A stretch of DNA of 31,024 nucleotides, taken from positions 1 to 31,024 of the IMG/VR virus record IMGVR_UViG_3300037193_002711, one strand, 5' to 3'. The DNA comes from a virus. Each line of letters opens with the position of its first letter. Within the stretch, counting starts at the first letter, position 1. The position numbers and the translations under genes are program-made. The notes beneath the pieces are model-generated. The model saw only the letters and a list, made by a program, of their open reading frames with translations, made no database searches and was not told the origin of the DNA. Shown one piece after another: positions 7,905 through 31,024 of the stretch.

Positions 7905-8437
7905 TCCTTGTCTTCGACTGGGAGACGACCGGGCTGACCCTGCATCCCGATGCCGACCTCGAAAAGCAGCCTCATGCGATCGAGTTCGGCGGGATGTATC
8001 TCAGCCCGAGTTCTGGCCGGGTGATCGAGGAGTTTTCATTCCTCATTCACCCCGGCATGCTGGTGTCGGAAGAGATCACCAAGATCACCGGCATCACCAA
8101 CGATATGCTTGACAGCGAGCCCCGCTTCAAGGATCGATTCCCGAAGGTGCGCAGCATCTTCGCAGGCGCAACGTGCATGATCGCACACAACCTGCCGTTC
8201 GACAAAGCGATTCTGCAAGGCGAGCTCGCGCGGCTGGGCGTTGCCGAGTTCCCATGGCCCGCCAAGGAGCTGTGCACCGTCGGGCTGTACAAGGAGGCGT
8301 GGGGTCGCAATCCGCGCCTGATCGAGCTGTACGAGAACGTCATGGGCAAGAAGTACGAGCAGACCCACCGTGGCCTGGACGACGTGAAGGCGCTGGTGGA
8401 GATCGTTCAGCGCGAGCGGCTGTGGGAGCTGGCATGA
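7901..8437 (+). CDS. DnaQ-like 3'-5' exonuclease (DEDDh)
   Basis: A 178-residue exonuclease of the polymerase III epsilon type. All five acidic/His residues are visible: D6 and E8 in FDWETTG, D101 in HNLPFD, and H156 with D161 in THRGLDD, so it is a DEDDh enzyme. It removes mismatched 3' ends. The stop overlaps the start of the polymerase gene (ATGA), so both are translated together, and it very probably proofreads for that polymerase. It lacks the long C-terminal alpha-binding tail of bacterial epsilon (about 243 residues), so the contact with the polymerase must differ. Confidence 0.9.
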   Translation: MILVFDWETTGLTLHPDADLEKQPHAIEFGGMYLSPSSGRVIEEFSFLIHPGMLVSEEITKITGITNDMLDSEPRFKDRFPKVRSIFAGATCMIAHNLPFDKAILQGELARLGVAEFPWPAKELCTVGLYKEAWGRNPRLIELYENVMGKKYEQTHRGLDDVKALVEIVQRERLWELA

Positions 8438-11331
8438 CATACATCGCAGACAAGGTCGCGCTGCCGCAGCTGCGCGTGCGCACCGAGTTCTCCTTCCAGC
8501 AAGCCTACGGCCCGGTGAAGCGCGTCGCTGCGGCACTCGCCGAGTTGAAGTGCCCGGCCGCTGGCATCGTGGACGGAGGCACTTGGGGGCATGTTAAGTG
8601 GGCCAAGGAGCTCAACGCGGTCGGCGTCAAGCCGCTCTTCGGCACCGAGCTCGTCGTGCCAATGGCTGATGGGCGTAAGCCTACGGCCTGGGCGCTGGCG
8701 GAGGACACCGCAGCCTTCTACCGCTTCAGCACCGCAGCTCGCCGGGAAGACGCCGACATCGCGCAGCTGTTCCGCGAAGCACGCGGCGTCGTTCGCTTTG
8801 CCGGCGCAGCGCTCAGCGATCCGGACTGCTTCGACTACGTGGATCTGAACCCGGCCTCGCCGCTGCAGCAACGCCGCGCGCTGGCGCTGGCAAAGGAGAC
8901 AGGCAAGCCCCTGGTGATCACCAGCGACAACTCCTACCCACGCCCGCAGGATCGCGCCGCGTTCATGGCGCTCATCGACCGCAGCAAGGTGACCCCTCAG
9001 CACATTCTGTCGAATGAGGAGCTGCGCGAGCAGTTGCGCTGCCTCGACGATCAGCAGTACGCCCGCGCCGTCGCAGCCACCTTCGAGGTCGCGCATCGTT
9101 GCCGCAACGCCAGCGAGCTGCCCAAGGCTCCGATCATCCAGGTGCCGGGCGACCTGCGCGCTCTGGCGCTGGAAGGCAAGCGCAGGCGCATCGCGCTCGG
9201 CCACATCAGCAGGTGGACGCAGGAGTACGCCAAGCGCCTGGAGCGCGAGCTGGTGGCCATCGAGCAGAAGGGCTTCGAGAGCTACTTCATCGTGGTGGCC
9301 GACATGATCGCGTGGGCCAAGGAGCGCATGCTGGTCGGGCCGGGCCGGGGCTCCTCTGCCGGCTCGCTGCTGTGCTACTGCATCGGCATCACGGAGGTGG
9401 ACCCGCTGGTGCACGGCTTGCTGTTCGAGCGGTTCATCGACCTGACCCGCAAGGATCTTCCCGACATTGACGTGGACTTCAACGATGAGAAACGCGACCT
9501 CGTTATTGATTATCTTGCAGAAAAGTACGGGCGCGATTGCGTGGCACGCATCGGCAACATCAATACGTACAAGCCGAAGTCTGTTCTCGCCGCGGTGTGC
9601 AAGCGCTTTGGCATCCCTGACTACGAGCGGTTCAACCTTGTCAACGTCCTTATCGAGTACAGCTCTGGCGACTCTCGGTACGGGAAGGGTTTGGAGGACA
9701 CGCTCAATAACACCGATGTCGGGCGCTCCTTCATGGAGCGCCATCCGAAAGCCGCCGTTATGGGCGAGGTTGAAAATCACGCGAGCCACACCGGCGTCCA
9801 TGCGGCGGGTGTCATCGTATGCAATGTACCGGTCAGTGACTACTGCACCGTTGGATCGGACGGTGTTGCGCACGTGGACAAGCCTGACGCGGAGGCTCTC
9901 AATCTTCTCAAGATCGACGCGCTCGGCCTTCGTACGCTTGGCATCATTGAAGACGCGGGCGTCACGACGGCTGATGAACTTTACGCGCTGAAGCTGAACG
10001 ACCCGGAGGTGTTCAAGGTCTTCAACGACCGCAAGTACTGCGCGTTGTTTCAGTTCGAAGGGCAGAGCCAGCGCAGCATCAGCGCTCAGGTTGCCGTGAA
10101 CGACTTCCAAACCATTGACCACCTGACCGCGCTGAGCCGCCCAGGTCCGCTCGGCGGAGGCGCCACCGGCAAGTACGTGGAGCGCAAGCGCGGCGACTGG
10201 GGCGAGGAGGAAGAGCACGAGAAGTACATCGCCCACATGCTGGAGGACACCTTTGGCGTGGTGCTGTACCAGGAGCAGGTGATGCGCATCGTGCGGGAGA
10301 TCGGCAAGTTCTCCTGGGACGAGACGACCGTGATCCGCAAGGCGATGTCCGGTCGCAAGGGCAAGGAGTACTTCGACCAGCAGGGCGAGAAGTTCATTGC
10401 AGGCGCCGCGCAGGACGGCATCCCGGCGCACCACGCCAAGGCGATCTGGGAACAGATCTGCTCGTTCGGCGCCTGGGGCATGAACAAGTCGCACACCTGC
10501 GCCTACGCGATCATCAGCTACTGGTGCGCGTGGATGAAGCGCTACCACCCGCTGCAGTACGCTGCGGCCTGCCTGCGGCACGCCAAGGACGACGACCAGA
10601 CTATGGAGATCTTGCGCGAGATGGCGGAGGAAGGCGTGAGCTACGTCGCCTTCGACATTGAGCGCAGCGATGTGAACTGGGCCGCAGTCGATGGAGCTCT
10701 GCTCGGCGGGTTCATGAACCTGGAGGGCATCGGCCCGGCCAAGGCGCGCAAGGCCGTGGAGGATCGCACGGCGGGCAAGATGAGCGACGAGCAGCGAGCG
10801 AAGCTCCTGGCTCTGCCCGTGAAGTTCTCCGAGCTCTACCCGCTGCGCGCGGCCTACGCGGGCATCTACGCAGATCCGTACGCGCACGGCTGTGCTGAGG
10901 GGTCGGTGCTGCTGACTGCAGACCAATTCCCCGCAGCGGGCAACGTGTTGTACCTCGGGCAGCTGGTGAAGAAAGAACGGCGCGACCAGAACGAAACGGT
11001 CCGGGTCGCGCGGCGCGGCGGCAAGCTTCTGCGTGGGCCGACGCTGTTCGCCGACCTCGTGCTGAAGGACGACACCGGCATCCCCGTGATCTGCCGCATC
11101 GACCGCTTCGACTACGAGCCGCTGGGGCGCATCGCGATCGAGAACCTCGTGGTGGGCGAGGATGTGCTGCTTGTGCGCGGTCGCCGCGTGCCTAACTTCA
11201 GCATGATCACAATCGACAGAGTCAAGTGCTTGAACAGACCGGAGGCATTACGTGAGCAGAAAGCCGGAGCAGCTCCTGTGGGACAGGATGCACAACAATC
11301 TGCGGGGCAAGCTGAACCTGCAGCGGATTGA
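8434..11331 (+). CDS. dnaE: DNA polymerase III alpha subunit (DnaE-type replicase)
   Basis: A 965-residue C-family DNA polymerase. The start at ATG 8434 overlaps the exonuclease stop. The N-terminal PHP-like domain (about 1-200) has lost the usual metal-binding His pattern (it reads RTEFSF). The palm has GPGRGSSAGS (302-311), the catalytic PDIDVDF (D344, D346) and KIDALGL (D495). An OB-like domain follows at about 836-955. It is about 200 residues shorter than E. coli DnaE and lacks the C-terminal tau-binding domain. Codons in about 9480-10000 use far more A/T third bases than their flanks. The last 80 bases overlap the next gene in another frame. It is probably the phage replicase. Confidence 0.93.
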   Translation: MTYIADKVALPQLRVRTEFSFQQAYGPVKRVAAALAELKCPAAGIVDGGTWGHVKWAKELNAVGVKPLFGTELVVPMADGRKPTAWALAEDTAAFYRFSTAARREDADIAQLFREARGVVRFAGAALSDPDCFDYVDLNPASPLQQRRALALAKETGKPLVITSDNSYPRPQDRAAFMALIDRSKVTPQHILSNEELREQLRCLDDQQYARAVAATFEVAHRCRNASELPKAPIIQVPGDLRALALEGKRRRIALGHISRWTQEYAKRLERELVAIEQKGFESYFIVVADMIAWAKERMLVGPGRGSSAGSLLCYCIGITEVDPLVHGLLFERFIDLTRKDLPDIDVDFNDEKRDLVIDYLAEKYGRDCVARIGNINTYKPKSVLAAVCKRFGIPDYERFNLVNVLIEYSSGDSRYGKGLEDTLNNTDVGRSFMERHPKAAVMGEVENHASHTGVHAAGVIVCNVPVSDYCTVGSDGVAHVDKPDAEALNLLKIDALGLRTLGIIEDAGVTTADELYALKLNDPEVFKVFNDRKYCALFQFEGQSQRSISAQVAVNDFQTIDHLTALSRPGPLGGGATGKYVERKRGDWGEEEEHEKYIAHMLEDTFGVVLYQEQVMRIVREIGKFSWDETTVIRKAMSGRKGKEYFDQQGEKFIAGAAQDGIPAHHAKAIWEQICSFGAWGMNKSHTCAYAIISYWCAWMKRYHPLQYAAACLRHAKDDDQTMEILREMAEEGVSYVAFDIERSDVNWAAVDGALLGGFMNLEGIGPAKARKAVEDRTAGKMSDEQRAKLLALPVKFSELYPLRAAYAGIYADPYAHGCAEGSVLLTADQFPAAGNVLYLGQLVKKERRDQNETVRVARRGGKLLRGPTLFADLVLKDDTGIPVICRIDRFDYEPLGRIAIENLVVGEDVLLVRGRRVPNFSMITIDRVKCLNRPEALREQKAGAAPVGQDAQQSAGQAEPAAD

Positions 11332-11677
11332 GAACATGGTTGGGGATGGCATCCCGGATGTCCTGACGTTGCGCAGCGGCAAGGTAACCTTCTGCGAGCT
11401 GAAGGTTGCGGAGCGAATCCCGGCTCGTCCTGGAACGCCGCTGCTCGGTGACAAGAAAGGCCTGAACGTCGAGCAGCGCAACTGGCATCTGGACTGGACG
11501 ATGAACGGCGGGCGATCGATGATCATCGTTGGCATTCAAGATCAGTCGGTGCACTTCGCGCTGTGGGGGCACTTGGCGGATCGTGTCAACGCTATGTCGT
11601 ACAACGACATGCATTCGGCGTGCGCCATCATGTCTAACGGCGTAAACTTTTGGCGACGGTTGTTGGAGGCACTTTGA
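11252..11677 (+). CDS. VRR-NUC type nuclease (PD-(D/E)xK)
   Basis: A 141-residue nuclease. The start is GTG 11252, with GGAGG at 11241-11245; the gene overlaps the dnaE end by 80 bases. The catalytic pattern of VRR-NUC enzymes is visible: E27 in the first helix, GDGIPD (D36), then FCELK (E49, K51) and a Gln in VEQRNW (Q75). Phage VRR-NUC proteins of this size act on branched or flapped DNA, such as Holliday junctions and replication intermediates. The position between the polymerase and an SNF2 helicase is the usual one in phage replication modules. The C-terminal 45 residues are less conserved-looking. Confidence 0.85.
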   Translation: MSRKPEQLLWDRMHNNLRGKLNLQRIENMVGDGIPDVLTLRSGKVTFCELKVAERIPARPGTPLLGDKKGLNVEQRNWHLDWTMNGGRSMIIVGIQDQSVHFALWGHLADRVNAMSYNDMHSACAIMSNGVNFWRRLLEAL

Positions 11678-13206
11678 AAACACAAGGCATGGCGCATCAG
11701 CTGGAAGGCGTCCGGCGATCGGCGGGCAAGAGGTACTTCGCCTACTTCATGGAGCAGGGCACCGGCAAGAGCTGGACCTTGCTGGCGGATGCCGAGCGGC
11801 ACTACGCCATGGGCAAGATCAACGCGCTGTTCATTCTCGCGCCCAACGGTGTGCACACCAACTGGGTGCTGCGAGAGATCGACAAACACCTGGACTGCCC
11901 GAACATCAAGCGTGCATGGCGCGCTGGCATGAGCAAGAGCAAGCGCGCAAAGATGGACGACTTGATGACGTGGCGCGCAAAGGGCGCGGCCGAGCCGCTG
12001 CGCATCTTGACCATGGCGTGGGAGTCGATCCAGAGCAAGGACGCATTCGAGTTCGCGCTCAGCTTCATGCAGTCCACCCGGTGCATGTTCGCCTGGGACG
12101 AGTCTCAGTACGGCAAGAACGGGAAGGCCGAGCGCACCAAGCACGCCATGCGGCTCAGGCCGCACTCGGTGGCACGGCGCCTGCTCAGCGGCTCGCCCTT
12201 CGACAAGCCGTGGGACATATTCTCCCAAGCGGAGTTCCTGGAGGAAGGGCTGCTCGGCACCAGCAGTTTCCGCGCGTTCTGTTCTGAGTACGCTGTGTTG
12301 GCGGACTGGAAGAACCCGGTGACGGACAGCGACTGGGCCATGAAGAAGCAGGTGGCGAAGAATCCGCGCATGGCGCACGCCATCATTGTTGCCAAGGACG
12401 ACACCACCGGCCTGCCGATGTACCGCAATCTCGACAAGCTCAACAAGCTCATCGAGCCGTGGTCGTACCGCGTGCTGAAGAAGGATTGCCTGGACCTGCC
12501 GGAGAAGATCTACCAGCAGGTGTTCTTCGATCTGAGCACCAAGCAGCGCGCGGCCTACCAGCTCATGGAGGATGAGTTCCGCATCCGTCTGGAGGACGGC
12601 TCGGTGACGCCTGTGAGCGCGCTCGCATCGCTCGTCAAGCTGCAACAGATCACCAGCGGGTACGTCGTGGTGCCAGGGCGCGAGGATCTGTTGTACGTGG
12701 ACGAGAAGAACCCGCGCTTGGAGGCGCTGATGACCTCCGTCGAGCCGTTCGCCGGGCGCAAGAAGTTCATCGTGTGGGCACGCTTCCGTGAGGAGATTGC
12801 CGCGATCGCCGCGCGCTTGCGCAAGGAGGGGCTGCGCGTCGTCGAGTACCACGGCGGGATCTCGGCCAAGGATCGCGAGGCCGCGATCGACGAGCTGCAG
12901 GAGGGCGCGGCGGACGCCATCGTCATGAACCAGCAGGCGGGCGGCACCGGCCTGACGCTCACAGCGGCTGCGTACGCGATCTACTACAGCAACTACTACT
13001 CGCTGCTGCGGCGCATCCAGAGCGAGGACCGCAACCATCGCATCGGCACGGAGAAGTTCGCCAAAGACGGCGTGGTGTACATCGACCTGATCGCCGAAGA
13101 CACCATCGACAGCGGCATTGCGCTGGCCCTTCAGCAGAAAGCTGATCTGGCCGCGACAATCCTCGGCGACCGCAAACTGAATCTGCCGGCAGGACTCGAC
13201 GAATAA
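11674..13206 (+). CDS. SNF2-type DEAD/H helicase
   Basis: A 510-residue superfamily 2 helicase/translocase of the SNF2 type. The start is taken as TTG 11674, overlapping the nuclease stop (TTGA) and four bases after GGAGG; TTG 11650 and ATG 11689 are alternatives. Motifs in order: Walker A QGTGKS (28-33), Walker B DESQ (142-145), motif III SGSP (172-175), motif V region QQAGGTGLT (about 419-428) and motif VI IQSEDRNHRIG (448-458). Phage SNF2 proteins are found beside VRR-NUC genes and are thought to work with them on replication forks or recombination intermediates. The stop codon lies inside a palindrome. Confidence 0.93.
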   Translation: MKTQGMAHQLEGVRRSAGKRYFAYFMEQGTGKSWTLLADAERHYAMGKINALFILAPNGVHTNWVLREIDKHLDCPNIKRAWRAGMSKSKRAKMDDLMTWRAKGAAEPLRILTMAWESIQSKDAFEFALSFMQSTRCMFAWDESQYGKNGKAERTKHAMRLRPHSVARRLLSGSPFDKPWDIFSQAEFLEEGLLGTSSFRAFCSEYAVLADWKNPVTDSDWAMKKQVAKNPRMAHAIIVAKDDTTGLPMYRNLDKLNKLIEPWSYRVLKKDCLDLPEKIYQQVFFDLSTKQRAAYQLMEDEFRIRLEDGSVTPVSALASLVKLQQITSGYVVVPGREDLLYVDEKNPRLEALMTSVEPFAGRKKFIVWARFREEIAAIAARLRKEGLRVVEYHGGISAKDREAAIDELQEGAADAIVMNQQAGGTGLTLTAAAYAIYYSNYYSLLRRIQSEDRNHRIGTEKFAKDGVVYIDLIAEDTIDSGIALALQQKADLAATILGDRKLNLPAGLDE

Positions 13207-17514: not shown

Positions 17515-20004
17515 CTACTGCTGCCTGGTCAACTGGAACGCCTGCGCGTGATGCGCGAACCACGGCGCCCGCAACGGGTCTAGCTGCTGCAGCGTGCCGA
17601 TGAATCCGAACTGCTGGTTGAGCGCGCGGTCATCCGGGTCACGCAGGTACAACACCTCCTTGGCTATGCCAGAGAACCCGATCATCTCGTGAACCTGCTC
17701 ACCTTCCAGCTCGCTGAGCACAGGGAACGCAAACGACTCCGTGCGGTAGCGCGGCTTCTGATTAAAGATGCGCTTGCCAGTTGGCGTGCTGTTGAACGAC
17801 GACTGATCAACCCAGCCACTTTGCAATCCGTATTCCGCGTTGAACTCCGGTTGCCAGCTGGATTTGCCAAGGAACATGCGGCCGATCTGCAGCCGACCAT
17901 CCGTGAACGTGGGCGGGTTTGCATGGTTGTATGTGTAGAACTCCACGGCGCCGCGCGTGACCGTCAGCTCCGGGAAGTGCTCGATCAAGTCAAACACGCT
18001 GCCCCAGTCCTGCGGCGGATTTGAGCGATGGCTGTAATCCATCTGCAGGCACTTGATGAACCCGGAATCGTACCCGACGCCAGACGCGCTCGGGCTGCTT
18101 GCAACCATGGCGGCAAGTTGGGTCCGCGTCATATGCTTGTTCCAGTACGCCACGCGCGTCTGCCATGTCGGGCGCGTAATCTCTTCGTCCAGGTTGATGC
18201 GCGTCAGCCCGGAAGGCACGGACAGAGCCGAGTTGGTCGCAGGTGACGCGCTGCTTGCGTAGAAATCAAACTCATTCGCCCGGTACGCGATCGCAGTGCG
18301 GATCTCCGCGCCAACCGTCAAGGGGGCGTTGGCCGAATCCCACGTGGTCGCGCCTCCGCTTACGACGATCGTGTCGACGGTCGGGCTGACCGTGTCACTT
18401 AGCACCCGCAAGCGGATGCGGTTGTTCACAGTCCCATCGGTGATCGCTGCCGCGCCGACCAACGTGCCCGCTGGCGTGACGAAAGAACTGCTGGGGATAA
18501 GCGCCACGTACAGCGTGCCCTCTGCCGAACCCACAGTGACATCTGCCCCGTTGTCGACAAAAGCTGTGTCAACGGTTCGCGTGACAGCTGCCGATGTAGT
18601 CGGAATGTAGCTGGACACACCTTGAGCGTTTTCCAGCTGCCCACCCCACACATCAATAGCAGAAGTTCCGTCGCCCGTATAGACGGCTGTGCCGCTGGTC
18701 GCGTTCATCATGAAGACGGTGAACGTAGCAGCGGTCGACGCGGCGTCCATCTTGCCAGAGCATGAGATGCGAGCCCAACCACCGGGGAACTTCTGTATGA
18801 CCGCGCCAGCAACGGCGAGCCCAGAGCCGATGGCCAGTGTGTCTACCGAAACGGTGAAGTTGGATAGATCAAAGTACGCGGTGAACCCATGAGCACCGCT
18901 GCCATCGTTAACCTGCAAGCGCGCGTGTCGCGAACCAACTGCGCGCCTCACCCACATCGAAACCGTGATGTAACCGTTTGCGATGACAGTTGCACCTTGG
19001 CTGATGCTGTGCGCTGTGTTCGCTGTGTTTTCCGTGATGCGAGCGGCGTTGGGTGAGCCGCCGGGCGCGGTTGCCGAGCTGACACTAGCAGTCACGTTGC
19101 CCTTGGCCCAAGCTGCGTTGGTGATGTCTTCCGAACGCAGCATGAGGTTCGTGCGGGCCGATTCGCGCAGCCGCCCGATGCGTTGATACAACACAGAGGT
19201 CGTCGTGGCTCGCGGGTAGCGCGCCGTCGACCCGTGCTCGACCTGCCAATTCCGAAACTGCAGAACGCCAGCAGCAGAAACCTTCACGACACCGGCGCTG
19301 CCCGTAAGCGTAACAGTGGAGTTCGTGAACGTTGCAGACACCCGCGTCCACTGGCTGGTCGCCGTCTTGGTGCTGGAGAGCAAGACGCCCGCACCGCTGC
19401 CAAACCGGAACTGAAAGTCCGGACTGCCACTGACCAAGCGGACGTCCACGCTGATTGTGTAGTCGGCGGCCAGATACTCCTTGTTGCCTTGGGTCACCAA
19501 TCCATTGGCGTCGAAGTGAATTGTGCGCGCGTCCAGCACCCATGCGAGCTGCTTGAACCAAGGCGAAACAGACATGTCGTCCGACTGCAGGAAGCCGTTG
19601 CGGTACTTGGCGGGGTCGTGGTCCAGACGCGGCTGCGTCATCGGCACCACCACGCCGTTCTCGTTGACGATCGTTCCGTTGGTGCCGCCCCCGTACGTGA
19701 TGAACGGGTGCAACAGGGTGCCAGTCTCGCCATCAGTGTAGTCGATGTCGAACTGCGCTGTGCCGACGCGCACGCGCCAGTAGTCGTCCTCTTGAGCGTT
19801 GTGGTGACTCAGCGCCAACGCTGCGGCGATGGCAGGCGCAGCCAGCGAGAACCGGAAGCCTTTGAAAACTTCGCTGCTGGACTTCCACTTCAGAGATGTG
19901 TCCCGCAGCCCGATGTTGCTGACTGGAAAACCAGAAGTCGTGCTGCTCGCTGCATACGTCGCGGTGTCCGCTGCGTTCTCCGAGATGAGTTTGATGTTTG
20001 CCAT
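17515..20004 (-). CDS. Tail protein with lectin-like modules (receptor-binding candidate)
   Basis: An 829-residue tail-tip protein. Residues 1-100 and about 640-829 look like the two ends of a shorter conserved siphovirus tail protein (FYTYNHANPP, SELEGEQVHEMIGF). Between them lie three strand-rich segments: about 135-270 and 285-475, both of the carbohydrate-binding jelly-roll type (NLMLRSEDITNAAW, ending QLENAQGVSSYIP), and about 490-610, resembling a LamG/concanavalin-like domain. Insertion of such modules is a common way to change host range. It follows the hub-like gene with a 3-base gap. It probably binds the host cell-surface polysaccharide; this is an inference. Confidence 0.7.
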   Translation of the reverse strand: MANIKLISENAADTATYAASSTTSGFPVSNIGLRDTSLKWKSSSEVFKGFRFSLAAPAIAAALALSHHNAQEDDYWRVRVGTAQFDIDYTDGETGTLLHPFITYGGGTNGTIVNENGVVVPMTQPRLDHDPAKYRNGFLQSDDMSVSPWFKQLAWVLDARTIHFDANGLVTQGNKEYLAADYTISVDVRLVSGSPDFQFRFGSGAGVLLSSTKTATSQWTRVSATFTNSTVTLTGSAGVVKVSAAGVLQFRNWQVEHGSTARYPRATTTSVLYQRIGRLRESARTNLMLRSEDITNAAWAKGNVTASVSSATAPGGSPNAARITENTANTAHSISQGATVIANGYITVSMWVRRAVGSRHARLQVNDGSGAHGFTAYFDLSNFTVSVDTLAIGSGLAVAGAVIQKFPGGWARISCSGKMDAASTAATFTVFMMNATSGTAVYTGDGTSAIDVWGGQLENAQGVSSYIPTTSAAVTRTVDTAFVDNGADVTVGSAEGTLYVALIPSSSFVTPAGTLVGAAAITDGTVNNRIRLRVLSDTVSPTVDTIVVSGGATTWDSANAPLTVGAEIRTAIAYRANEFDFYASSASPATNSALSVPSGLTRINLDEEITRPTWQTRVAYWNKHMTRTQLAAMVASSPSASGVGYDSGFIKCLQMDYSHRSNPPQDWGSVFDLIEHFPELTVTRGAVEFYTYNHANPPTFTDGRLQIGRMFLGKSSWQPEFNAEYGLQSGWVDQSSFNSTPTGKRIFNQKPRYRTESFAFPVLSELEGEQVHEMIGFSGIAKEVLYLRDPDDRALNQQFGFIGTLQQLDPLRAPWFAHHAQAFQLTRQQ

Positions 20005-20007
20005 AGC

Positions 20008-21585
20008 CTAGCCCCACACCGTAACGGTCAAAGTGTCATTGGCGGAATCGAACTTGCGCCCGATCACGTAAAAGTTTTTCCCCGCATCCAGCTCGAAGCG
20101 ATCCATCACCAGCCGGAGATAGGAGGCGAAGGTCAGGTCGTTCGCGCTGTCGATCTGTATGGTCGTATCAAAGGCGTAAAAGCTACGCAACACCTTGAGC
20201 AACGCCAGCAATCGATTGGCTTCCGCCTGCGCTGCTCCCTCGTCATAGATCTGACTGTCGACAGTTATTTCGGCTGCGTTCGGGTAGTCCACCAGCACAG
20301 CACTGTCCGAAGCCGACACGGTGCGATAGTCCTGACCGAAGATGGCCTGATCCGCCGCCGACACGCCGCCTGCCAGCTGCGATCCAGTTTGCACCGTGTG
20401 GTTCTTACGATAACGCACGACCACGCGCCACACAGGGACGCCTCTGTCGTCGTCGCCACTCTTAACCTTGCGAAGCGAAGTGGCTCCGGGCCGAGTTTCA
20501 AGAATGTTGTCGTCGTCATACTCCGGTGGCGAAGACACCCCAGACGGATCTGCCAAGGCGTAGAAATTGATCACATTGCCATTGCCCGCCCATGTGGCCG
20601 ACACACCGGAAAACAGCGTGTTGATCGCTTCAAGGTATGTAACATCCCCCTCCAGCGCAATGCCGCAATCTGGATAGGCCGCCAACCCAGGACCGACGGC
20701 CGTGACCGTGTTGCCAATGGTGGACCAGTCCAGCAACTGGCAAACCAACCCGTGCACCTCGTGGCCGGTTGAAAGCGTAGGTGTAGCGGACAATGACGTC
20801 GACACAGGGTTGACAAGATCCAGCGTCGGCATGACAGGCTTCGACCCGAACCGAATGTAGCCGCCGCCCGGCCATACACGGTACTGACCAGCAGCAGGGG
20901 CGGTGGTCTCCATGTCCGCCTGGCTAACGTAGTTTGCCCCAGCGGTCAAGACGACGCCCTGATCGCGCACGACGATGGACCATCCGGTGTTGAACGCACC
21001 GTCGTTCACCTGATAGATCAGGCGAGAGGTGTTCACCTGATACGGGGTCCAGTTGTAAACCTTGCCGATCAGCTTTGGTTTGGTTTTGCCCTTCAGGTCT
21101 GCTGCCGTGCCTTCAAGGCCAGCGGGCAACGAGTTGTTGCCTGCATAGCGGTTGGTCAATGCGGGCTTGTCGAGCATGTACGCGTGGTCACGCAGGTAAA
21201 CCATGACCTGATCCATGTCCACTTCAACCGCGTCCGCGAACTGCAGCGCCTCGGTACGCGTGGTGTTCACATCCGGATTCGAGTCGCGTACACGCAGCAC
21301 ACACTCGCGCTTCTGCACGTTGCGGTTGGCGTAAGCGTCAAGGTCACCGTCAGAGTTGTCCAGCATGGCAAAGCCGTTCCACGGCCGACGCGGACCCCTG
21401 GTGCCGTAGTCTCCGAAGAACGGTGCGTCGAAGGTTATCTGCTTCAGCCGCTCCAGATATTGCGGAGTGCCGTCGCGCTCTGCGAGCGTAGAGAACGCCT
21501 GCTGCTCCAACGACCCAGGAGAGCCTGGCACCCAATAAAAGACGTCGATGCTGTAAGCAACGCCTTTGTCGTTGAAGTAGCTCAC
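20008..21585 (-). CDS. Tail hub/baseplate-like protein
   Basis: A 525-residue protein translated from GTG 21585, overlapping the tape measure stop (GTGA). It sits just after the tape measure gene, where siphoviruses encode distal tail and hub proteins. The N-terminal 120 residues (FWVPGSPGSLEQQAF, RRPWNGFAMLDNSDGD) look like a tube-attachment region. The later part (about 280-525) has the alternation of strands and helices seen in tail hub proteins, with FSGVSATWAGNGNVINFY and a final LTVTVWG. No enzyme motif was found. Position and layout support a structural tail-tip role. Confidence 0.6.
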   Translation of the reverse strand: MSYFNDKGVAYSIDVFYWVPGSPGSLEQQAFSTLAERDGTPQYLERLKQITFDAPFFGDYGTRGPRRPWNGFAMLDNSDGDLDAYANRNVQKRECVLRVRDSNPDVNTTRTEALQFADAVEVDMDQVMVYLRDHAYMLDKPALTNRYAGNNSLPAGLEGTAADLKGKTKPKLIGKVYNWTPYQVNTSRLIYQVNDGAFNTGWSIVVRDQGVVLTAGANYVSQADMETTAPAAGQYRVWPGGGYIRFGSKPVMPTLDLVNPVSTSLSATPTLSTGHEVHGLVCQLLDWSTIGNTVTAVGPGLAAYPDCGIALEGDVTYLEAINTLFSGVSATWAGNGNVINFYALADPSGVSSPPEYDDDNILETRPGATSLRKVKSGDDDRGVPVWRVVVRYRKNHTVQTGSQLAGGVSAADQAIFGQDYRTVSASDSAVLVDYPNAAEITVDSQIYDEGAAQAEANRLLALLKVLRSFYAFDTTIQIDSANDLTFASYLRLVMDRFELDAGKNFYVIGRKFDSANDTLTVTVWG

Positions 21586-24500
21586 GTCGATGCCCTCGCG
21601 AGAAGTTCAGACGTGCGCTTTTCAGAAGTGTTGTGGTCGATGGACTCCAACGTCTCCACGGTCTTCACCTGCCCGCTTGCCATGATGTTCTTAAGGCCGC
21701 GGACCTCGTCGCGCAACGCCTTCACCTCCTCCAGCAATGCGCCGTTCGCCCCGCCAGACATGTTCATGCTGTCGCGATGGTTGAAGATGCGAGACGGCCC
21801 GGTGTACTCCAGCTCCGGCCCACGCTCGCCAACCCAACGCCAGCCGCCTGGATGGTTGCCGCCGTTGGCATAAGCACCTGGCGCATCACCGGCGTCGTTT
21901 GTGCTGTTGTCCACGGGCCAGACTTGCATGCCTCCGTTGTACAGAAACCAATCCGACGGATTCTGGGTGCCGCCAGCGGCCACGTAGTAATCATACAGCT
22001 GACGGCGCGTCATCCCCCAAAGCGTCTGCTCCTCCCAGTTGACGCTAAAACCGCCGATGTTAGTCGGGAACATCGGATCGGCTGGCGCAGCAGGCGGAGG
22101 AGACACTGGCGCAGCGACAATCGGCGCTGGCGGCGGAGGCGGAGTCAGCGCCCCCTGAGACGCGCCCAGCGTGCTCAAGATTGAAGCGTTGATCGCATGC
22201 AGCTGCGCGGACTGAATGTTGCCCTGCGCAGTCAGCGCCTCCAGATGGCTGATCTGCCCATCACCGTCTGCGTCCATCAATGAAATCAGAGCGCGCAGTT
22301 GCGTGTCGGTGGCCTTGCCCGCGAGCGCCGCCTGCAGCTCCGGAAACGTCAGCATCCCATCCACATTCAGGTCAATTGCCGTGAACTGCGTAGCGATCCG
22401 CGCGGGCAAGGACAGAACCGACTGATTCGTTGTGTTCAGCTGCGAAGATTGCACGGTGCCCTGCGCGGTCAGAACTTCCAGTCGACTCAACTGTCCGTCG
22501 CCATTGAGGTCCGTCAAAGCGATAAGCGCGCCAATTTGTGCGTCTGTTGCCTTGCCGACAAGCGCCGCCTGCAGTTCTGCGAACGTCAGCATGCCGTCCA
22601 CGTTCAAGTCGATGGCGGTGAACTGCGTGGCGATCTGCATCGGCAAGGACAGAACCGACTGGTTGATCAGCGCTAGCTGCTCCAGCATCTGCTGTTCATA
22701 ACTCTTGACGGCAGGAAGCGCAGACAACTCAGAGATGACTTGATCAATAACAGCCTGGGTCATCGACCCGCTGGCGGACCAACCCTTCTGGGCTTCTAGA
22801 TAGGCCTGCGCAGAAGACTGGATGCGGCCGTAAGCGTCCGCATTGCCTGTGCGCGCGAGTGCCAAGTCCTGCAGGTAGTTGGCGCGGCGCAAGGCCAGCT
22901 CTGCCTGCGGAGAGGAGGTGTCCACGCGATCCGCGCGCAATTCGCGGACGTACTCAAACAGGCTCTTCCCGAACCCCATCAGCTGGCTGGAGACGCCGTT
23001 GACAGAATCAGCAGCTCCCTCGGCAACAGGCACGAGCGCGGCGAACGCACCGTTCACCTTGAGCAGCGCGTTGTACGCTGGCGAGCCCGGTTCAAGAGAT
23101 TCAAACAAAGCGCGGAACTGTTCACGCGTGGTGGCAAGCACCTGAGCCGCAGTTGTCGATAGGCCAGACTCGTTCAAGACCTTGGAGATCTGTTCAGCTG
23201 CGAACTGCCGCTTCTCTTCCGTGGTCAGGAAGTTGTCGATGTAACTGCTGAGACTTCCCTTGAACGCGTCCAGACCGCCGACCGCGTCCATTATGACGAC
23301 GGCCGTGTTTGTGGCAACATTCTTTAGCGACAGCAGCGCGGAAGGCAACTCCACCGTCAAGGCACGGAACCCGGCTGCGTCGACGGCGACCTGATTCACG
23401 AACGCAAGCGCTTCATCAAGCTTGGCTGTCGCCAGCACGTTTATGTCGCCGATGCTCTGCAGGTACTCGCGAACCTTGGTGGGCACATCAGCAACGGCCA
23501 ACGCTTGTAGCGTAGCCTGCTTGAGTTCATCGCCGAACTCCTTCGCCGCCTCCTCCGGCTTCTTGTTGCCACGACGGTTGTTGCGTCCAATGGCTTCAGT
23601 TGCTTCGCCAAAGGTTGCACCGGTATTCAGCGTGCCACCGGCATAAACAAAGCCCTTGCCCTTCCGCGAGCTTTCCAGCGCAGAGACGAAATCCGTCAAT
23701 CGCGCGCCACTGCCCAGCGCTTCCAGCATGCCGTTGATCTGTTGCATGGTGGCGTTCACCGCGTCGCGCGCGCCCGGGATCTCGCCGCCGGACGGCCCGT
23801 GTGCAAGCTGGCCGTTGCGGTAAGTGGCGCCGGAACGAGTCTCGCCGCCGATGCCGAGCTTTTGCAACGCGGCCTGCAGGATGGAAGAGCCGGTCAGGAT
23901 CGCAGCCATCTTGCCATCGATGCCGAACATACCAAGCAGTTCGGTGTTGATGGTCATGCCGGGGTCAGCCCACGTGTTGCCCTTATCCCACTTGTAGCCC
24001 TTGTCGTACAAGCTGCCAGACGCCATCATGCCGGCAAGGATCCAACCGACAACCGGAATGGCGCCCAGGCCAGCCGCAGCGCCGCTCCCCGCCCCGGCAG
24101 CGCCAGCAGCCGTTCCGTACGCACCGTTCGTCGCCAGAAGACCAGACAGACCGGTGCCGGTCGCGTTGGCGTACAGCGTGCCGAGACCGTTCGCAACGGA
24201 CATCGACCCGCCAAGCACTTGACTGCCCACGGTGTAAAGGCTGCTGGCCGTGCTGGCAAGCGACGTAAGATTACTGAGTGATCCCGCCGCGCTGCTGCCA
24301 GAACCGCCGCCGCCGACAACGCCGCGTGCCAGGTCACTCGCGCTCATGCTGTAGTTGCCCGACACATTGAGTAGCCAGCGCTTGACCGTCATCTGATACA
24401 GCCAATCGAAGAAGATGGCCTTGGCCGTGTCCTTCAACTTCTTCCATGTGTTTGTGCCACCCTCCAACACGTTGGTGAACACGTCATGAGCCGTGCGGTC

Positions 24501-26135
24501 GATCGACTCCCAGAACGCCTTGTGCTGCTCAAACGCCTCGTTCAGCTGAGCGCCATGCGTCTTCGCGTCTGCCAGGTCGCGCAAGAGGCGAGCCTCCTCG
24601 CGGTATGCATCCCCCATGCGACCGGACCAATCGATCTCGTCTGCAAGTGTCGCGCGACGCTCGAGAGAAGCAGCGCGGTCAAGCATCTTGGCGCGCTCCA
24701 GTTCGGCGAGCTGCCTGGTGTTCAGGCCTATCGCCTTGTTGGCGTCCAGCTGCGTCTGCAGCTCCTTGCGGAGACTTTCATTCGTGCCGTCCTGCGCCTG
24801 CCACTTGCGCTCGTACGCTTCGGCGGCTTCCTCGATCGCCTTCCTCTCAGCTTCCAGCTGCTTCTGCATGAACGGCTGCTTCTGCAACAGCGCTGCCTGC
24901 GCCTCCGCCAGTTTCTCGACATTGATGGCGCCAGCCCTGTACGCCATGTTCAGTCGATTCCAATCCTCCAAGAACGACGGAGACAGGCCGCTCATCTCAA
25001 GCATCAGCTTTTGCAGTTCGGCCTGCTCTTTAGCCACCTTCTTGGCGGCCTCGCCATTGTCGATGAACCCGCGCAGCCCGGCAGCAGCGCCGCGTGCTGC
25101 GCGGCCGTTGGCGTCCAAGCGCCGAGAGAGCGCATCGGTGGTGTCGCCCAGCGCCATGCTGGCGGTGCCAGCCGACATGATCTTGCGCTCCCAGGCATCG
25201 AACTCTTCCCGGTTGCGCGCGGCATCCTCGCGCATCAGACGCCCGATCTCGGCCGCGCGATCCCACTCGCCGCTGAAGAAGGCTGCGGCCTGCGCTGCGA
25301 TGCCGCCGATCTCGATGCCGATCGCGCGGATGACAAAAGCGACGTTGCCTCCGACAATGATCAGCGCGCGCAACGTCTCGGTAAGCGGATCGAACGCGCC
25401 GGTCGTCTCGTTGGTCTTGTCGATGACGTCGGTGAGCTCGCTGACGAACGTGGTCAGCAACGGAAGCATCGAGCTAGACAGGTTGGTCGCGGTGCCGTGC
25501 AACGCCTGCTGCATCTCGGCAACAGCATCGTTGAAGTTGTCGGCCTCTGCCGCGTTGTCCTTGGTGACCCGGCTCAGCTCGGTGCCGCGCTTGATGACCT
25601 TGTCCATCTCGGCTTCGCTGAGCGACAGCACGCCAGCCACAGACTGCCAGCTCTTGCCGAGCGCCTCGTTCATAACGGCATTGCGCAGCTGAACATCGTC
25701 AACTTGCTGAAACACTTGCGCCAACTGCTTCAACGCGCCGACGCCGTCGCGCGCGGTGACGCCGATCTTGGCGTACTTCTCCGGGTCCTTGCCTATGTTT
25801 TGCTGCAGCTTGTTGACGGCCTTGGCCAGCTCGTTCAACTCCGTTCCATTCTGCTTGGATAGCAGCGACAGCCCGGCAAGCTTACCAACAGCTATGTCTG
25901 TGGACTTACTCAGGTCGTTGAGACTGTCGTTGAAGTCGACCGCGCCCTTGATCCACACGGCGAACGCAGCGACAGAAAGGCCACCGAGCAACCCTTCGAA
26001 CCGTCCGCGCACGCGATCGATCGCCCGTTCAACCTCGGTCATGGCGCGATTGACGGTGCGCTTCACCGACTCCATGTCTTTCTGGAGTCGGGCGATGTCT
26101 GCTAGGATCTGGAGTTCAAGGGTGCCGGCGATCAT
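21582..26135 (-). CDS. Tape measure protein with EF-hand repeats
   Basis: A 1517-residue protein that sets tail length and helps DNA entry. The start is ATG 26135, overlapping the GT stop. The N-terminal 250 residues are helical (coiled coil, then LGGLSVAAFAVWIKGAVDF), with hydrophobic segments near 265-300 and in the Gly/Ala-rich middle (LGAIPVVGWILAGMMASG). Residues 1159-1316 are two 79-residue repeats with four EF-hand loops. A Pro-rich linker follows, then a C-terminal block with WVGERGPEL and GPSRIFN, common at the ends of tape measure proteins. At about 0.15 nm per residue the length suggests a tail near 200 nm. Confidence 0.92.
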   Translation of the reverse strand: MIAGTLELQILADIARLQKDMESVKRTVNRAMTEVERAIDRVRGRFEGLLGGLSVAAFAVWIKGAVDFNDSLNDLSKSTDIAVGKLAGLSLLSKQNGTELNELAKAVNKLQQNIGKDPEKYAKIGVTARDGVGALKQLAQVFQQVDDVQLRNAVMNEALGKSWQSVAGVLSLSEAEMDKVIKRGTELSRVTKDNAAEADNFNDAVAEMQQALHGTATNLSSSMLPLLTTFVSELTDVIDKTNETTGAFDPLTETLRALIIVGGNVAFVIRAIGIEIGGIAAQAAAFFSGEWDRAAEIGRLMREDAARNREEFDAWERKIMSAGTASMALGDTTDALSRRLDANGRAARGAAAGLRGFIDNGEAAKKVAKEQAELQKLMLEMSGLSPSFLEDWNRLNMAYRAGAINVEKLAEAQAALLQKQPFMQKQLEAERKAIEEAAEAYERKWQAQDGTNESLRKELQTQLDANKAIGLNTRQLAELERAKMLDRAASLERRATLADEIDWSGRMGDAYREEARLLRDLADAKTHGAQLNEAFEQHKAFWESIDRTAHDVFTNVLEGGTNTWKKLKDTAKAIFFDWLYQMTVKRWLLNVSGNYSMSASDLARGVVGGGGSGSSAAGSLSNLTSLASTASSLYTVGSQVLGGSMSVANGLGTLYANATGTGLSGLLATNGAYGTAAGAAGAGSGAAAGLGAIPVVGWILAGMMASGSLYDKGYKWDKGNTWADPGMTINTELLGMFGIDGKMAAILTGSSILQAALQKLGIGGETRSGATYRNGQLAHGPSGGEIPGARDAVNATMQQINGMLEALGSGARLTDFVSALESSRKGKGFVYAGGTLNTGATFGEATEAIGRNNRRGNKKPEEAAKEFGDELKQATLQALAVADVPTKVREYLQSIGDINVLATAKLDEALAFVNQVAVDAAGFRALTVELPSALLSLKNVATNTAVVIMDAVGGLDAFKGSLSSYIDNFLTTEEKRQFAAEQISKVLNESGLSTTAAQVLATTREQFRALFESLEPGSPAYNALLKVNGAFAALVPVAEGAADSVNGVSSQLMGFGKSLFEYVRELRADRVDTSSPQAELALRRANYLQDLALARTGNADAYGRIQSSAQAYLEAQKGWSASGSMTQAVIDQVISELSALPAVKSYEQQMLEQLALINQSVLSLPMQIATQFTAIDLNVDGMLTFAELQAALVGKATDAQIGALIALTDLNGDGQLSRLEVLTAQGTVQSSQLNTTNQSVLSLPARIATQFTAIDLNVDGMLTFPELQAALAGKATDTQLRALISLMDADGDGQISHLEALTAQGNIQSAQLHAINASILSTLGASQGALTPPPPPAPIVAAPVSPPPAAPADPMFPTNIGGFSVNWEEQTLWGMTRRQLYDYYVAAGGTQNPSDWFLYNGGMQVWPVDNSTNDAGDAPGAYANGGNHPGGWRWVGERGPELEYTGPSRIFNHRDSMNMSGGANGALLEEVKALRDEVRGLKNIMASGQVKTVETLESIDHNTSEKRTSELLARAST
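22188..22661 (-). repeat. Tandem 237-bp repeat encoding EF-hand pairs
   Basis: Two in-frame direct repeats of exactly 79 codons (22425-22661, then 22188-22424 in coding order) lie in the tape measure gene. Each encodes two EF-hand loops 33 residues apart: DLNVDGMLTFAE and DLNGDGQLSRLE in the first, DLNVDGMLTFPE and DADGDGQISHLE in the second. All four keep Asp at 1, Asn/Asp at 3, Asp at 5, Gly at 6, a hydrophobic at 8 and Glu at 12, the calcium-binding consensus. The bases have drifted, so the duplication is not recent. Confidence 0.9.
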
Positions 26136-26614
26136 TTCTTGCGTGCCTCTATGAAGCTGCGGAATTGGTTCCTGAGCGCCTTATCAACCGCCACGCGCGT
26201 CGCCCCCAGGGTCTCTGCCGGGATCAGCGGCGCAGGTCGATTCGGATCTACAGCCGCGTGAAGTTCTGACAAGTATTCCTGAGAAAGCACCCGCAGAGTG
26301 GTCTTCTCCCAAGGCGTCAGCAACCTGCACGTGCCCGCTTGCCAGTGGTTCAGCTCGCCCCATGTTATCGGACCCTCCCCAGCTCCGCCCTGGCTGATGG
26401 GTCCGACCTCGAAGAGATAGGCGATGAGGTGGTTGCATCCAGAAAGATCCGGCATAGGCACTGGCATGCCTGAGTCCTCCAGCCGCTTCTTCCTCGGCCG
26501 CCGATCCGGCTTATGCCGCTTGCCACGTTTGTCTGCTTGCGGATCTTCCGGAACGGCATGCAACCAGCCCAGCTGCCTTACGTAGCTCTTCAGCTCTTCG
26601 ACGAGCTGGGCGGA
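26132..26614 (-). CDS. Tail assembly chaperone GT, extension reached by -1 frameshift
   Basis: This frame has no good start of its own; the first candidate is TTG 26563. It is continuous with G after a -1 slip at 26614-26620. The fusion keeps 133 residues of G and adds 160 (total about 293). The added part runs SAQLVEELKSYVRQLGW, then a very basic stretch (RHKPDRRPRKKR) and a helical domain with LIAYLFEVGPI, GPITWGELNHW and LSQEYLSEL, like the T part of lambda-type GT proteins. GT recruits the tape measure protein and tail tube subunits. Its stop overlaps the tape measure start. Confidence 0.8.
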   Translation of the reverse strand, partial: SAQLVEELKSYVRQLGWLHAVPEDPQADKRGKRHKPDRRPRKKRLEDSGMPVPMPDLSGCNHLIAYLFEVGPISQGGAGEGPITWGELNHWQAGTCRLLTPWEKTTLRVLSQEYLSELHAAVDPNRPAPLIPAETLGATRVAVDKALRNQFRSFIEARKK

Positions 26615-27126: not shown

Positions 27127-27594
27127 TTAGGCAGCCAGCGACTCGACGATGCCGACGCCGGCAGAGCTGGTGGTGATCTCCACGTTCATGGTCGCGGAGG
27201 TCATGTCGTCCACGCCGTTGACGCCGACCTTCCAGGACATGACCTTGCCACGGTAGAAATACTTGTCGCCGTTGGGCATGGTCACGCGGAAGCTGTAATC
27301 GGTGGTGGCCAGCGATGCGGTCTTGGCCAAGATTTGGCCTGCATCGTCGGTGTCCAGCGCCAGCTGCAATTGCTGCGCGCCTTCGTTGAACGAGCCCTTG
27401 AACTTCTGGGTGCCGCGCGTCGCGAGCGGGTTGTGGGTGACAAGGCTGTCTTCGCGGCCGAACTCGCCGCCATTGACGATCTCGCCAATGTTGACAAACG
27501 TGGACGCGATCGCGTTGTAGCCCGCCGCCGTGTAAGCGCCGGGGTTGGTCGCCGAGATGGCGATGAGGGTGCCCGCTGAGGGTCCTACAGACAT
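27127..27594 (-). CDS. Major tail tube protein
   Basis: A 155-residue protein of the siphovirus tail tube type (lambda gpV N-domain, HK97-like). The N-terminal Gly/Ser-rich segment, the ITSTFVNIGEIVN-like strand (here IASTFVNIGEIVNGGEF), the central LQLALDTDD and the C-terminal YFYRGKVMSWKVGVNGVDD with a final beta strand (TSATMNVEITTS) fit that fold. It stacks in hexameric rings to form the tail. The start is ATG 27594 with AAAGGT upstream. It is flanked by the two longest gaps of the late operon, as expected for a gene that needs high expression. Confidence 0.85.
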   Translation of the reverse strand: MSVGPSAGTLIAISATNPGAYTAAGYNAIASTFVNIGEIVNGGEFGREDSLVTHNPLATRGTQKFKGSFNEGAQQLQLALDTDDAGQILAKTASLATTDYSFRVTMPNGDKYFYRGKVMSWKVGVNGVDDMTSATMNVEITTSSAGVGIVESLAA

Positions 27595-29531: not shown

Positions 29532-30157
29532 GTGATCCTCCGGAACGCGAATGTGGTGATGTCTTCCCGCCCCGCGTCCTGCTCGCGGTTGTCGGCGTCC
29601 TCGCAGCGGAAGCCCAGCTGCGCCATGAAGCGCTCCAGGCCGCGCGTGGTGAAGTACCAGCAGTGCTCGTCCTTGCGGAAGTGCTTGCTGCGCAGGATGT
29701 GATTGCCGTCGCGGTAGATCGGCATGCTCACAAACACCCACTCGCGCACGTTGCTCAGAAGGATGTCAGGGCGGTGGATGTGTTCCAGCGAGTCCCAGAA
29801 CGTCGCGGCGCGACATGACACCTTGTACACATCCCAGAAGATCGACTGCATCTCCAGCCACTCGCAGGCCAGCGGGTTCACGTCATAGCCATAGGTGTCG
29901 GCGCGATCCTGCACGAACCGCCCGCCGCCGATGCCGATGTCCACGACAGGACCGGCGTAATGCTTGGCGACCATCTCGATCCGCATCGTCGTCAGCTGCT
30001 CGCCGACAGGCGTGTTGTCCATCTCGCGATAGCGCTGCCAGTACTTGCTGTCGTACGGCTGCTCCTGCACCGGGTAGTAGCCAATGCCCAGCTCAGGCAA
30101 CCACTGAAGGTTTCCAGCGCGCCAGAAGTCGATCAACCCAGTTTCGTGCATGGACAT
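29528..30157 (-). CDS. Class I SAM-dependent methyltransferase
   Basis: A 209-residue enzyme. ATG 30157 is chosen as start, 12 bases after AAAAGGA; ATG 30151 is near, and upstream frame continues in the glycosyltransferase gene. Motif I is VVDIGIGGGRF (71-81), followed by the acidic end YGYDVNP (89-95), then WDSLEHIHRPDILLSN (121-136) and a late helix TTRGLERFMAQLGF. This layout is that of methyltransferase 11/23-type enzymes acting on small molecules, sugars or proteins rather than DNA; no DNA methylase motif (DPPY) is seen. It overlaps the glycosyltransferase by 65 bases, so they may share a substrate. Confidence 0.8.
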   Translation of the reverse strand: MSMHETGLIDFWRAGNLQWLPELGIGYYPVQEQPYDSKYWQRYREMDNTPVGEQLTTMRIEMVAKHYAGPVVDIGIGGGRFVQDRADTYGYDVNPLACEWLEMQSIFWDVYKVSCRAATFWDSLEHIHRPDILLSNVREWVFVSMPIYRDGNHILRSKHFRKDEHCWYFTTRGLERFMAQLGFRCEDADNREQDAGREDITTFAFRRIT

Positions 30158-30962
30158 CGAAGTCACCAATCCTTTTGTCGCACGCATGATCGCGGCGATC
30201 GCATGTGCAGAAATTATCGGGCAGAACTTGCGTAAGCACACTGGTATCCATCGCCGGATCGAGTATCCGCGCAGGACCGTTGTCCCTGCCCCACCCACCA
30301 TAAACCAGAAGCATAGGCACCTTGTACGCTATTGCCGCTGGCACCAACCAGCCAACCCCACCAATCACCCCTGCCGCCCCTCGCACCAACCCCATCAGCG
30401 CCTCCAAAGACAGCTCGCCGGAGTGATAGGTGATGTCGGCACGCGGAAGCGGATCGAGCGCCCACTCTCGGTTAGGAGACAGGTCCGCAACCGAAATGAC
30501 CGTGAAGTGCTTCGACGCAATGGCTGTCGCTGCCGCGAGGTAAGCGGGGTCCGGGTTGCGCGCGTCCGCCCGCCACTCTGCGCGGACGGTTGCCGGGCGC
30601 ACCACGACGTACGGGCGCCCCACCAGCGTCATGCGGAACGGCGGCAGGTCGAAAGTTCTAGCGCGGACGCCCAGCTCCGCCTCCAACGCGCTGAGCATCG
30701 AACCGGGGCGATTCACATAGTGAAGCGTCATGCGGGCCTTGTGGCGCAGCGTTGGAGGAACCGACCAGAGGCGAGGCTCGATCGCCTTGATGTTCTTCAG
30801 CTGCGTGCGCAGCATCGTCTCTGGTCGTAGCGGGTGCACATTCGGCAGATCGCTGTACAGCTGAGGCCAAGACGTTGACAGGTACACAGGCTCAGCCACC
30901 TCGCGCAAGACAGCGCGCTGGTAGATGTTGTCGCCCAGCCCCTGCATTCCGTCTATGATCAC
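30093..30962 (-). CDS. GT-B glycosyltransferase, heptosyltransferase (GT9)-like
   Basis: A 289-residue protein. The start is GTG 30962, five bases after a strong GGAGGAG; a GTG at 30995 is less well placed. The N-terminus QGLGDNIYQRAVLREV (7-22) matches the GxLGD loop of GT9 enzymes, and the C-terminal half has GELSLEALMGLVRGA (182-196), then GVGWLVPAAIAYKVPMLLVYGG, the nucleotide-sugar side of a GT-B fold. A Cys cluster (CTC, then C seven residues on) lies near the end. It would transfer a sugar to an unknown acceptor. In a late operon, virion glycosylation is a plausible role. Confidence 0.7.
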   Translation of the reverse strand: MIIDGMQGLGDNIYQRAVLREVAEPVYLSTSWPQLYSDLPNVHPLRPETMLRTQLKNIKAIEPRLWSVPPTLRHKARMTLHYVNRPGSMLSALEAELGVRARTFDLPPFRMTLVGRPYVVVRPATVRAEWRADARNPDPAYLAAATAIASKHFTVISVADLSPNREWALDPLPRADITYHSGELSLEALMGLVRGAAGVIGGVGWLVPAAIAYKVPMLLVYGGWGRDNGPARILDPAMDTSVLTQVLPDNFCTCDRRDHACDKRIGDFDVHARNWVDRLLARWKPSVVA

Positions 30963-31024
30963 GCCAACTCCTCCAACTTCACGCGCGGAAAGCACGTGAG
31001 CGCGCTCTCGCGCGTCGCATTGAG
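30959..31024 (-). CDS. C-terminal end of an upstream late gene (partial)
   Basis: A frame open from the window edge ends LEELA at TGA 30961-30959, overlapping the glycosyltransferase start (GTGA), the same coupling used elsewhere in this operon. Only 21 residues are visible, so the product cannot be named. The strong ribosome-binding site of the glycosyltransferase is inside it. Confidence 0.45.
   Translation of the reverse strand, partial: LNATRESALTCFPRVKLEELA

Follow-up and report, generated by a model that had tools for sequence, protein, structure and literature searches.

The tape measure gene and its surroundings

The DNA examined is a 31,024-nt stretch of viral DNA (IMG/VR record IMGVR_UViG_3300037193_002711, positions 1–31,024), referred to below as a whole as the window. 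The longest gene of its tail module, placed after the genes for the tail tube protein and a chaperone, encodes a protein of 1,517 residues (Table 1). This open reading frame was identified as the tail tape measure protein (TMP) from its match to phrog_25966 together with the gene order, in which the major tail protein and a weak Phage_TAC_18 match are located immediately upstream; among the PHROG profiles it also matches phrog_8125 (1.3e-14). In addition to the hydrophobic segment closest to the region of interest, which is listed in Table 1, the 19-residue Kyte-Doolittle window revealed further hydrophobic segments at residues 48–66 and 254–277. The C-terminal tail contains a residue, Gly1431, that is invariant among relatives and, by analogy with the position of lambda gpH, this tail is expected to lie in the tail tip (PMC10721106). 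The protein resembles the lambda gpH-type TMPs in its size, its gene position after the tube and chaperone genes, its hydrophobic segments, its C-terminal coiled coil and its PHROG and Pfam TMP profiles, but differs from them in an EF-hand cassette for which no description was found in the literature covered. To our knowledge, the known insertions in TMPs are lytic enzymes.

Table 1. Features of the window TMP, its neighboring tail genes and one related locus; positions refer to the window unless an accession is given
Feature	Position	Strand	Basis or remark
Tail tape measure protein (TMP), 1,517 aa	21582..26135	minus	phrog_25966 'tail length tape measure protein', 5.3e-53
Major tail (tube) protein	27127..27594	minus	phrog_158, 7.6e-14
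Probable tail assembly chaperone, upstream of TMP	26132..26563	minus	weak Phage_TAC_18 match, E 6.6e-4, below cut-off
TMP hydrophobic segment, residues 685-706, N-terminal of EF array	24018..24083	minus	19-residue Kyte-Doolittle window
TMP anchor, residues ~1051-1150, conserved, just N-terminal of cassette slot	22686..22985	minus	HMM from alignment A5
EF-hand repeat 1, residues 1159-1237, one EF-hand pair	22425..22661	minus	profile matches, repeat alignment
Ca2+ loop 1, DLNVDGMLTFAE, residues 1176-1187	22575..22610	minus	predicted from sequence
Ca2+ loop 2, DLNGDGQLSRLE, residues 1209-1220	22476..22511	minus	predicted; passes PROSITE-type expression
EF-hand repeat 2, residues 1238-1316, one EF-hand pair	22188..22424	minus	profile matches, repeat alignment
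Ca2+ loop 3, DLNVDGMLTFPE, residues 1255-1266	22338..22373	minus	predicted from sequence
Ca2+ loop 4, DADGDGQISHLE, residues 1288-1299	22239..22274	minus	predicted from sequence
TMP C-terminal tail, residues 1317-1517, GERGPEL motif and coiled-coil end	21585..22187	minus	sequence
Halomonas qaidamensis TMP-like locus L004	NZ_CP080628.1 29366-40277		annotated only 'EF-hand domain-containing protein'

The tail gene order of the window is also present in Pseudomonas phage vB_Pae_U7, the TMP of which (1,129 residues) shows no significant similarity to the window TMP and has no EF-hands and no clear anchor. The similar gene order combined with a dissimilar TMP suggests that the TMP has been replaced between the window phage and the vB_Pae_U7 type. 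Elsewhere in the window, the gene at 30093–31022 has a counterpart with ∼47% identity in P. aeruginosa siphophages whose genes are similarly ordered (vB_Pae_U7). Downstream of the TMP gene on the minus strand are located a gene for an 829-residue tail protein whose match to laminin-G is below threshold (17515–20004) and, directly adjoining the TMP, one for a 525-residue protein assigned to a PHROG of unknown function (20008–21585). The plus strand encodes the phage's own DNA polymerase III alpha-type polymerase (8173–11331) and a DNA helicase (11650–13206).

The EF-hand repeats and their predicted structure

Four EF-hand loops with complete ligand sets (positions 1, 3, 5, 9, and 12 in all four) are found in the window TMP, arranged in two 79-residue repeats that together span residues 1159–1316 (22188–22661), and both the coordinates and the ligands are exactly as given in an earlier note on this DNA. 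At the protein level the repeats share 75% identity and at the DNA level 74%, with a dN/dS of ∼0.13 (0.157/1.249; NG86). This ratio, together with the conservation of the ligands in relatives, argues that the repeats are maintained by purifying selection, and the same DNA identity and dN/dS led us to reject a recent slippage duplication with decaying function.

The Pfam profile EF-hand_7 (PF13499) matched two stretches of the window TMP with an E value of 3.7e-14 (53.3 bits against a cut-off of 30), PF13202 and PF00036 were likewise above cut-off, and an EF-hand profile search of the window's own record gave matches of 32 and 31.7 bits, again over the cut-off. The top sequence match of the EF segment in the PDB was calmodulin (3.6e-11), and two or more such loops occurred in only 1 of 2,000 shuffles of the window TMP. 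An expression of the strict PROSITE PS00018 type was passed by one of the four window loops and by 75 of 235 loops over the entire TMP set; in the window the mismatches are confined to non-ligand sites, namely Val4 in loops 1 and 3 and the alanine after Glu12 in loop 4.

For structure prediction, AlphaFold2 was supplied with residues 1126–1325 and 66 homologous segments, rows from phage and plasmid records being left out. The model (mean pLDDT 83.9) contains the helix-loop-helix pairs on which the earlier note had made its proposal depend, with four canonical helix-loop-helix units and two strand residues in each loop. The units form two lobes connected via a 32-residue helix, the mutual orientation of the lobes being undefined at a pTM of 0.50. 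A Foldseek search of the PDB returned Ca2+-calmodulin as the top fold match (E 1e-6), and the low global TM-score of this match may be read as free orientation of the lobes in the model. The same search against viral structure models produced nothing at E 0.001, and no phage TMP with an EF fold was found among them.

The profile matches, the calmodulin match in the PDB, the predicted structure and the shuffles together led to the rejection of chance or low complexity as the origin of the loops. An artefact in the form of a frame error, contamination or a low-complexity match is refuted by the open 1,517-residue frame, four independent significant tests and recurrence in dozens of contigs. We regard the presence of an EF-hand module within a TMP as practically certain, and binding of Ca2+ by this module, as predicted from its sequence, as highly probable.

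The segment shares with the canonical EF-hand pair (PF13499; calmodulin, troponin C) the paired helix-loop-helix, the 12-residue loop, the ligands at 1, 3, 5, 9, and 12 and a bilobal model, but it sits in a phage structural protein of 1,500–2,500 residues and occurs in tandem arrays. Nor does it belong to the calmodulin family of free-standing proteins with four EF-hands in ∼148 residues, being embedded in a protein of 1,517 residues whose relatives carry one to nine pairs.

EF-hand relatives and the exchangeable slot

A search of other TMPs for EF-hands revealed them in 59 IMG/VR contigs, in EBPR siphovirus 2 and in a plasmid of Halomonas qaidamensis. The raw 159-residue segment used as a query for related loci returned nothing, and the relatives surfaced via an alignment and DNA patterns. 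Among 50,697 phage records, tblastn identified a single relative, gp77 of EBPR siphovirus 2, which has one EF pair and carries no annotation beyond 'similar to tail protein'. Plasmid records yielded a 2,491-residue TMP-like protein with nine EF pairs on a 45.8-kb element of H. qaidamensis that may be a phage-plasmid. In both of these TMP-like proteins the EF pairs occupy the same slot as the two pairs of the window TMP. IMG/VR was searched with two EF-loop DNA patterns, and an HMM built on alignment A1 served to verify the matches, giving 63 ORFs with the same EF pair on 59 distinct contigs, some of which are siblings of one phage; these counts are lower bounds, as the patterns are narrow. The ORFs either have the length of a TMP or are truncated where the stored sequence stops, with the exception of L122, whose TMP gene is split over several frames. 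As seen in L282 (4793–8655, plus strand), the frames of this one-pair relative overlap and the split lies upstream of its EF pair, through assembly error or decay.

The arrays comprise one to nine EF pairs per TMP. All 23 full-length relatives that were scanned against Pfam contain EF-hand_7, with TMP_2 matched in four, PhageMin_Tail in three, TMP_3 in two and the lambda C-terminal profile in one, and as a group they match many different TMP PHROGs. The dockerin type I profile reached E ≤0.001 in 5 of the 23 and was not listed by Pfam for the window TMP. In 274 bacterial genomes of the class of G001, EF-hand_7 matches were found only in ORFs of ≤510 residues, and the highest score against the TMP EF model among 30 sampled cellular loci was 22 bits, with TMP copies scoring up to 110 bits; these figures do not support horizontal acquisition of any one cellular EF-hand protein. 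Across the class of G002 (369 genomes), a search at 1e-8 gave no TMP-specific EF pairs, a weak negative as the search had no positive control.

Conservation was assessed over 136 unique TMP EF pairs, counting scored positions only; the search patterns had required some ligand residues once per contig, and Glu12 of the second loop was in neither pattern. In the second loop, Asp1 was found in 133 of 133 scored cases, Asn or Asp at position 3 in 132 of 133, and Glu12 in 117 of 118. The first loop is more variable, with Asp1 in 91 of 107 and position 12 occupied by Glu (87) or Gln (44), i.e. by Gln in about a third. The Ca2+ ligands, foremost Glu12, are conserved far above the remainder of the TMP. 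Three further properties make the TMP pairs a recognisable type by sequence and set them apart from the canonical EF-hand pair: the commonest loop-to-loop spacing is 33 residues; an A-T-D linker occurs in 14 of 15 pairs from contigs found without demanding the linker, a linker that none of 70 cellular pairs has; and the first (odd) loops have a hydrophobic residue at position 4, with Leu, Val, or Met in 66 of 104 TMP loops and Leu in 1 of 107 cellular ones. It is this residue that causes the PROSITE expression to miss most TMP loops. Gln12 and Leu or Val at position 4 may weaken the affinity of the first loops.

The EF array is placed between the conserved anchor and the C-terminal tail and, where the ORF has an intact 3′ end, stops 150–420 residues before the C terminus. 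A pattern for the anchor that is blind to EF-hands, together with the anchor HMM (A5), identified at least 86 further TMP-like ORFs; among the matches listed, EF pairs were present in 9 of the 65 anchor-found ORFs complete at the 3′ end, and some of the other anchor-bearing TMPs have short tails of 41–170 residues. The length of the slot ranges from 3 to >600 residues. At the lower end, L236 aligns straight across the slot and has only three residues there, making it an empty slot. L242, which is 57% identical to the EF-bearing L079 in the anchor and 51% over 315 residues of the C-terminal tail, has its slot filled with 27-residue helical repeats, as do L264, L266, and L214, and these are predicted to form an α-helical repeat array (pTM 0.73). 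Repeats of 25 residues ('EQAIGRDLSxAERAGLV') occupy the slot in L254, L270, and Azospirillum L005 and L006. Tandem-repeat cassettes were also observed in the slot of L239, L275, L193, and L199, and for most of the slot cassettes Pfam gave no credible match. We found no account of TMPs with an exchangeable repeat slot of this kind.

Gain and loss of units is visible within one lineage, where L122, L055, and L106 have one, two, and three pairs, respectively, in exact steps of a 69-residue unit, with C-terminal parts that are ∼97% identical. The total TMP length of copy-number variants is not comparable, since their N-terminal 400–800 residues have been recombined. When L280 (L055 in full) is compared with L106, and L281 with L112, the last ∼1,000 residues are almost identical and the N-terminal 400–800 residues only 22–63% identical, with a sharp boundary between the two; the N-terminal ruler part of these TMPs appears to be swapped as a module. 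On these alignments, the EF array is a facultative, copy-number-variable cassette between the anchor and the C-terminal tail of siphophage TMPs. The existence of related TMPs without the array (L236) or with a non-EF helical cassette (L242, L264) implies that its function is optional or replaceable, and the freedom in copy number together with this replaceability would be easier to reconcile with an auxiliary, graded function than with an indispensable trigger.

Possible roles of the array

Three roles had been put forward in the earlier note: a trigger, an element of fold control for the low-calcium cytoplasm, and a domain that binds in the periplasm. The comparison of relatives speaks against an indispensable trigger, as the slot is empty in L236 and holds unrelated helical repeats in other related TMPs, and a role in fold control or anchoring after ejection is favored because the array lies near the C terminus, which in lambda is in the tail tip (PMC10721106), and C-terminal of membrane-like segments. 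Every hydrophobic (membrane-like) segment lies N-terminal of the array in 36 of the 37 long EF-TMPs that have such a segment and, if these segments enter the membrane with their C-terminal side outside, the array would be periplasmic. On balance, it is somewhat probable that the array acts after ejection, outside the tube.

Lambda gpH is a trimer with its C terminus in the lumen of the tail tip (PMC10721106), the lumen of the tail tube measures ∼4 nm (PMC9022992) and, in TP901-1, the C-terminal part of the TMP is a predicted extracellular domain, the protein being thought to exit the tail and form a DNA channel (PMC5099701). The orientation and exit order assumed for the window TMP are transferred by analogy from lambda and TP901-1. 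By our estimate a folded EF lobe would be ∼2.5 nm wide and, as three such lobes cannot fit abreast in a 4-nm tube, the array in the virion is probably extended or staggered. Ca2+ is low in the cytoplasm and high in the periplasm, which makes Ca2+-driven folding on exit plausible.

In the proposed mechanism, the sub-micromolar free Ca2+ of the infected cell would leave the array Ca-free, loosely folded and threadable, a state in which it could be packed into the 4-nm lumen of the tail tube as part of the TMP oligomer. During ejection, the TMP would emerge C terminus first, either into the periplasm, which is rich in Ca2+, or across the envelope. Every EF pair that comes out would then bind Ca2+ and fold into a bead unable to slide back, and the folded array would lock the TMP or ratchet it outward. 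The periplasmic end of the TMP would thereby be anchored during insertion of the hydrophobic segments, which would make up the DNA channel. Many EF-hand proteins stay folded without Ca2+, and were this the case here the unfolded Ca-free step would fall away.

The closest counterpart in working is provided by the RTX repeats of type I secretion, which are variable in number, lie near the C terminus, are unfolded at low Ca2+ and fold as the protein exits a narrow duct C terminus first, from low to high Ca2+, thereby acting as a Brownian ratchet (PMC6891781). The two systems differ in fold, β-roll versus EF-hand, and in conduit, and the Pfam scan of the window TMP returned no RTX/hemolysin-type Ca-binding profile (glycine-rich nonapeptide β-roll); the likeness would be one of working and not of descent. 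We place the probability of the whole explanation, a facultative EF-pair cassette with Ca2+-driven folding on ejection that locks or ratchets the TMP, at roughly 0.45. The component in which the array acts via Ca2+-driven folding as a ratchet or lock draws on the RTX analogy and is tentative, a little short of an even chance. That the tandem EF cassettes would serve the TMP as a ratchet or lock on exit, powered by calcium, in an exchangeable slot that tunes TMP behavior in the host envelope and as a counterpart of the RTX ratchet with a different fold, we consider rather doubtful.

A serious rival to folding on exit is docking to a host factor, whereby the ejected, Ca2+-loaded EF lobes would grip a helix of a periplasmic or inner-membrane host protein in the manner of calmodulin, the slot being swapped according to host. 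Ca2+-calmodulin is the nearest fold, and related TMPs hold different slot cassettes, as would a site of host adaptation. Arrays of up to nine pairs and the free gain and loss of units, however, suit a function graded by length or number better than a single docking site, and there is no known partner; we judge docking to be unlikely.

The range of slot lengths, from a few residues to several hundred, and the plain helical repeats of the other cassettes would also be accommodated by a purely structural spacer, in which the repeats simply lengthen or stiffen the TMP, for tail length or periplasmic reach, and Ca2+ only stabilizes them. A spacer would not need ligands, Glu12 above all, that are conserved beyond the rest of the protein, and this reading is improbable. 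The same complete ligand sets, and the location of the array toward the tip, could instead serve a Ca2+-sensing trigger in the virion, where external Ca2+ entering via the tail tip would give a Ca2+-bound array that licenses TMP release and DNA ejection; many siphophages are Ca2+-dependent. Such a trigger is quite improbable, given that absence or replacement of the array in related TMPs would be unexpected if it were indispensable, that the C-terminal tail of 150–420 residues puts the array within the tube and not at its opening, and that there is no sequence link to receptor binding.

For EF-hands in TMPs no precedent was found: a literature search for tape measure proteins together with EF-hands or calcium returned nothing relevant within its coverage, outside which subscription journals mostly fall, and no description of a TMP EF-hand mechanism was encountered, in line with the earlier note. 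In one phage study, structural proteins were screened for the PROSITE EF-hand and none was found (PMC5889276). A class of TMPs that carry EF-hands in an exchangeable cassette slot would be a new combination of two parts, EF-hand and TMP, that are each of a known kind, and the optional arrays point to a Ca2+-dependent step of DNA injection that is apparently undescribed.

The appearance of the TMP in the tail, the trigger of its release and the ensuing DNA ejection are listed among the open questions of the field (PMC9022992). A conserved, predicted metal-binding module in a defined TMP segment offers a direct handle on these questions, with a state that can be read and that can be broken by point changes. 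A natural series is available in TMPs with zero, one, two, three, and nine pairs and in those with non-calcium replacements. If the proposed role is true, it would provide one concrete molecular reason for the calcium need of some siphophages.
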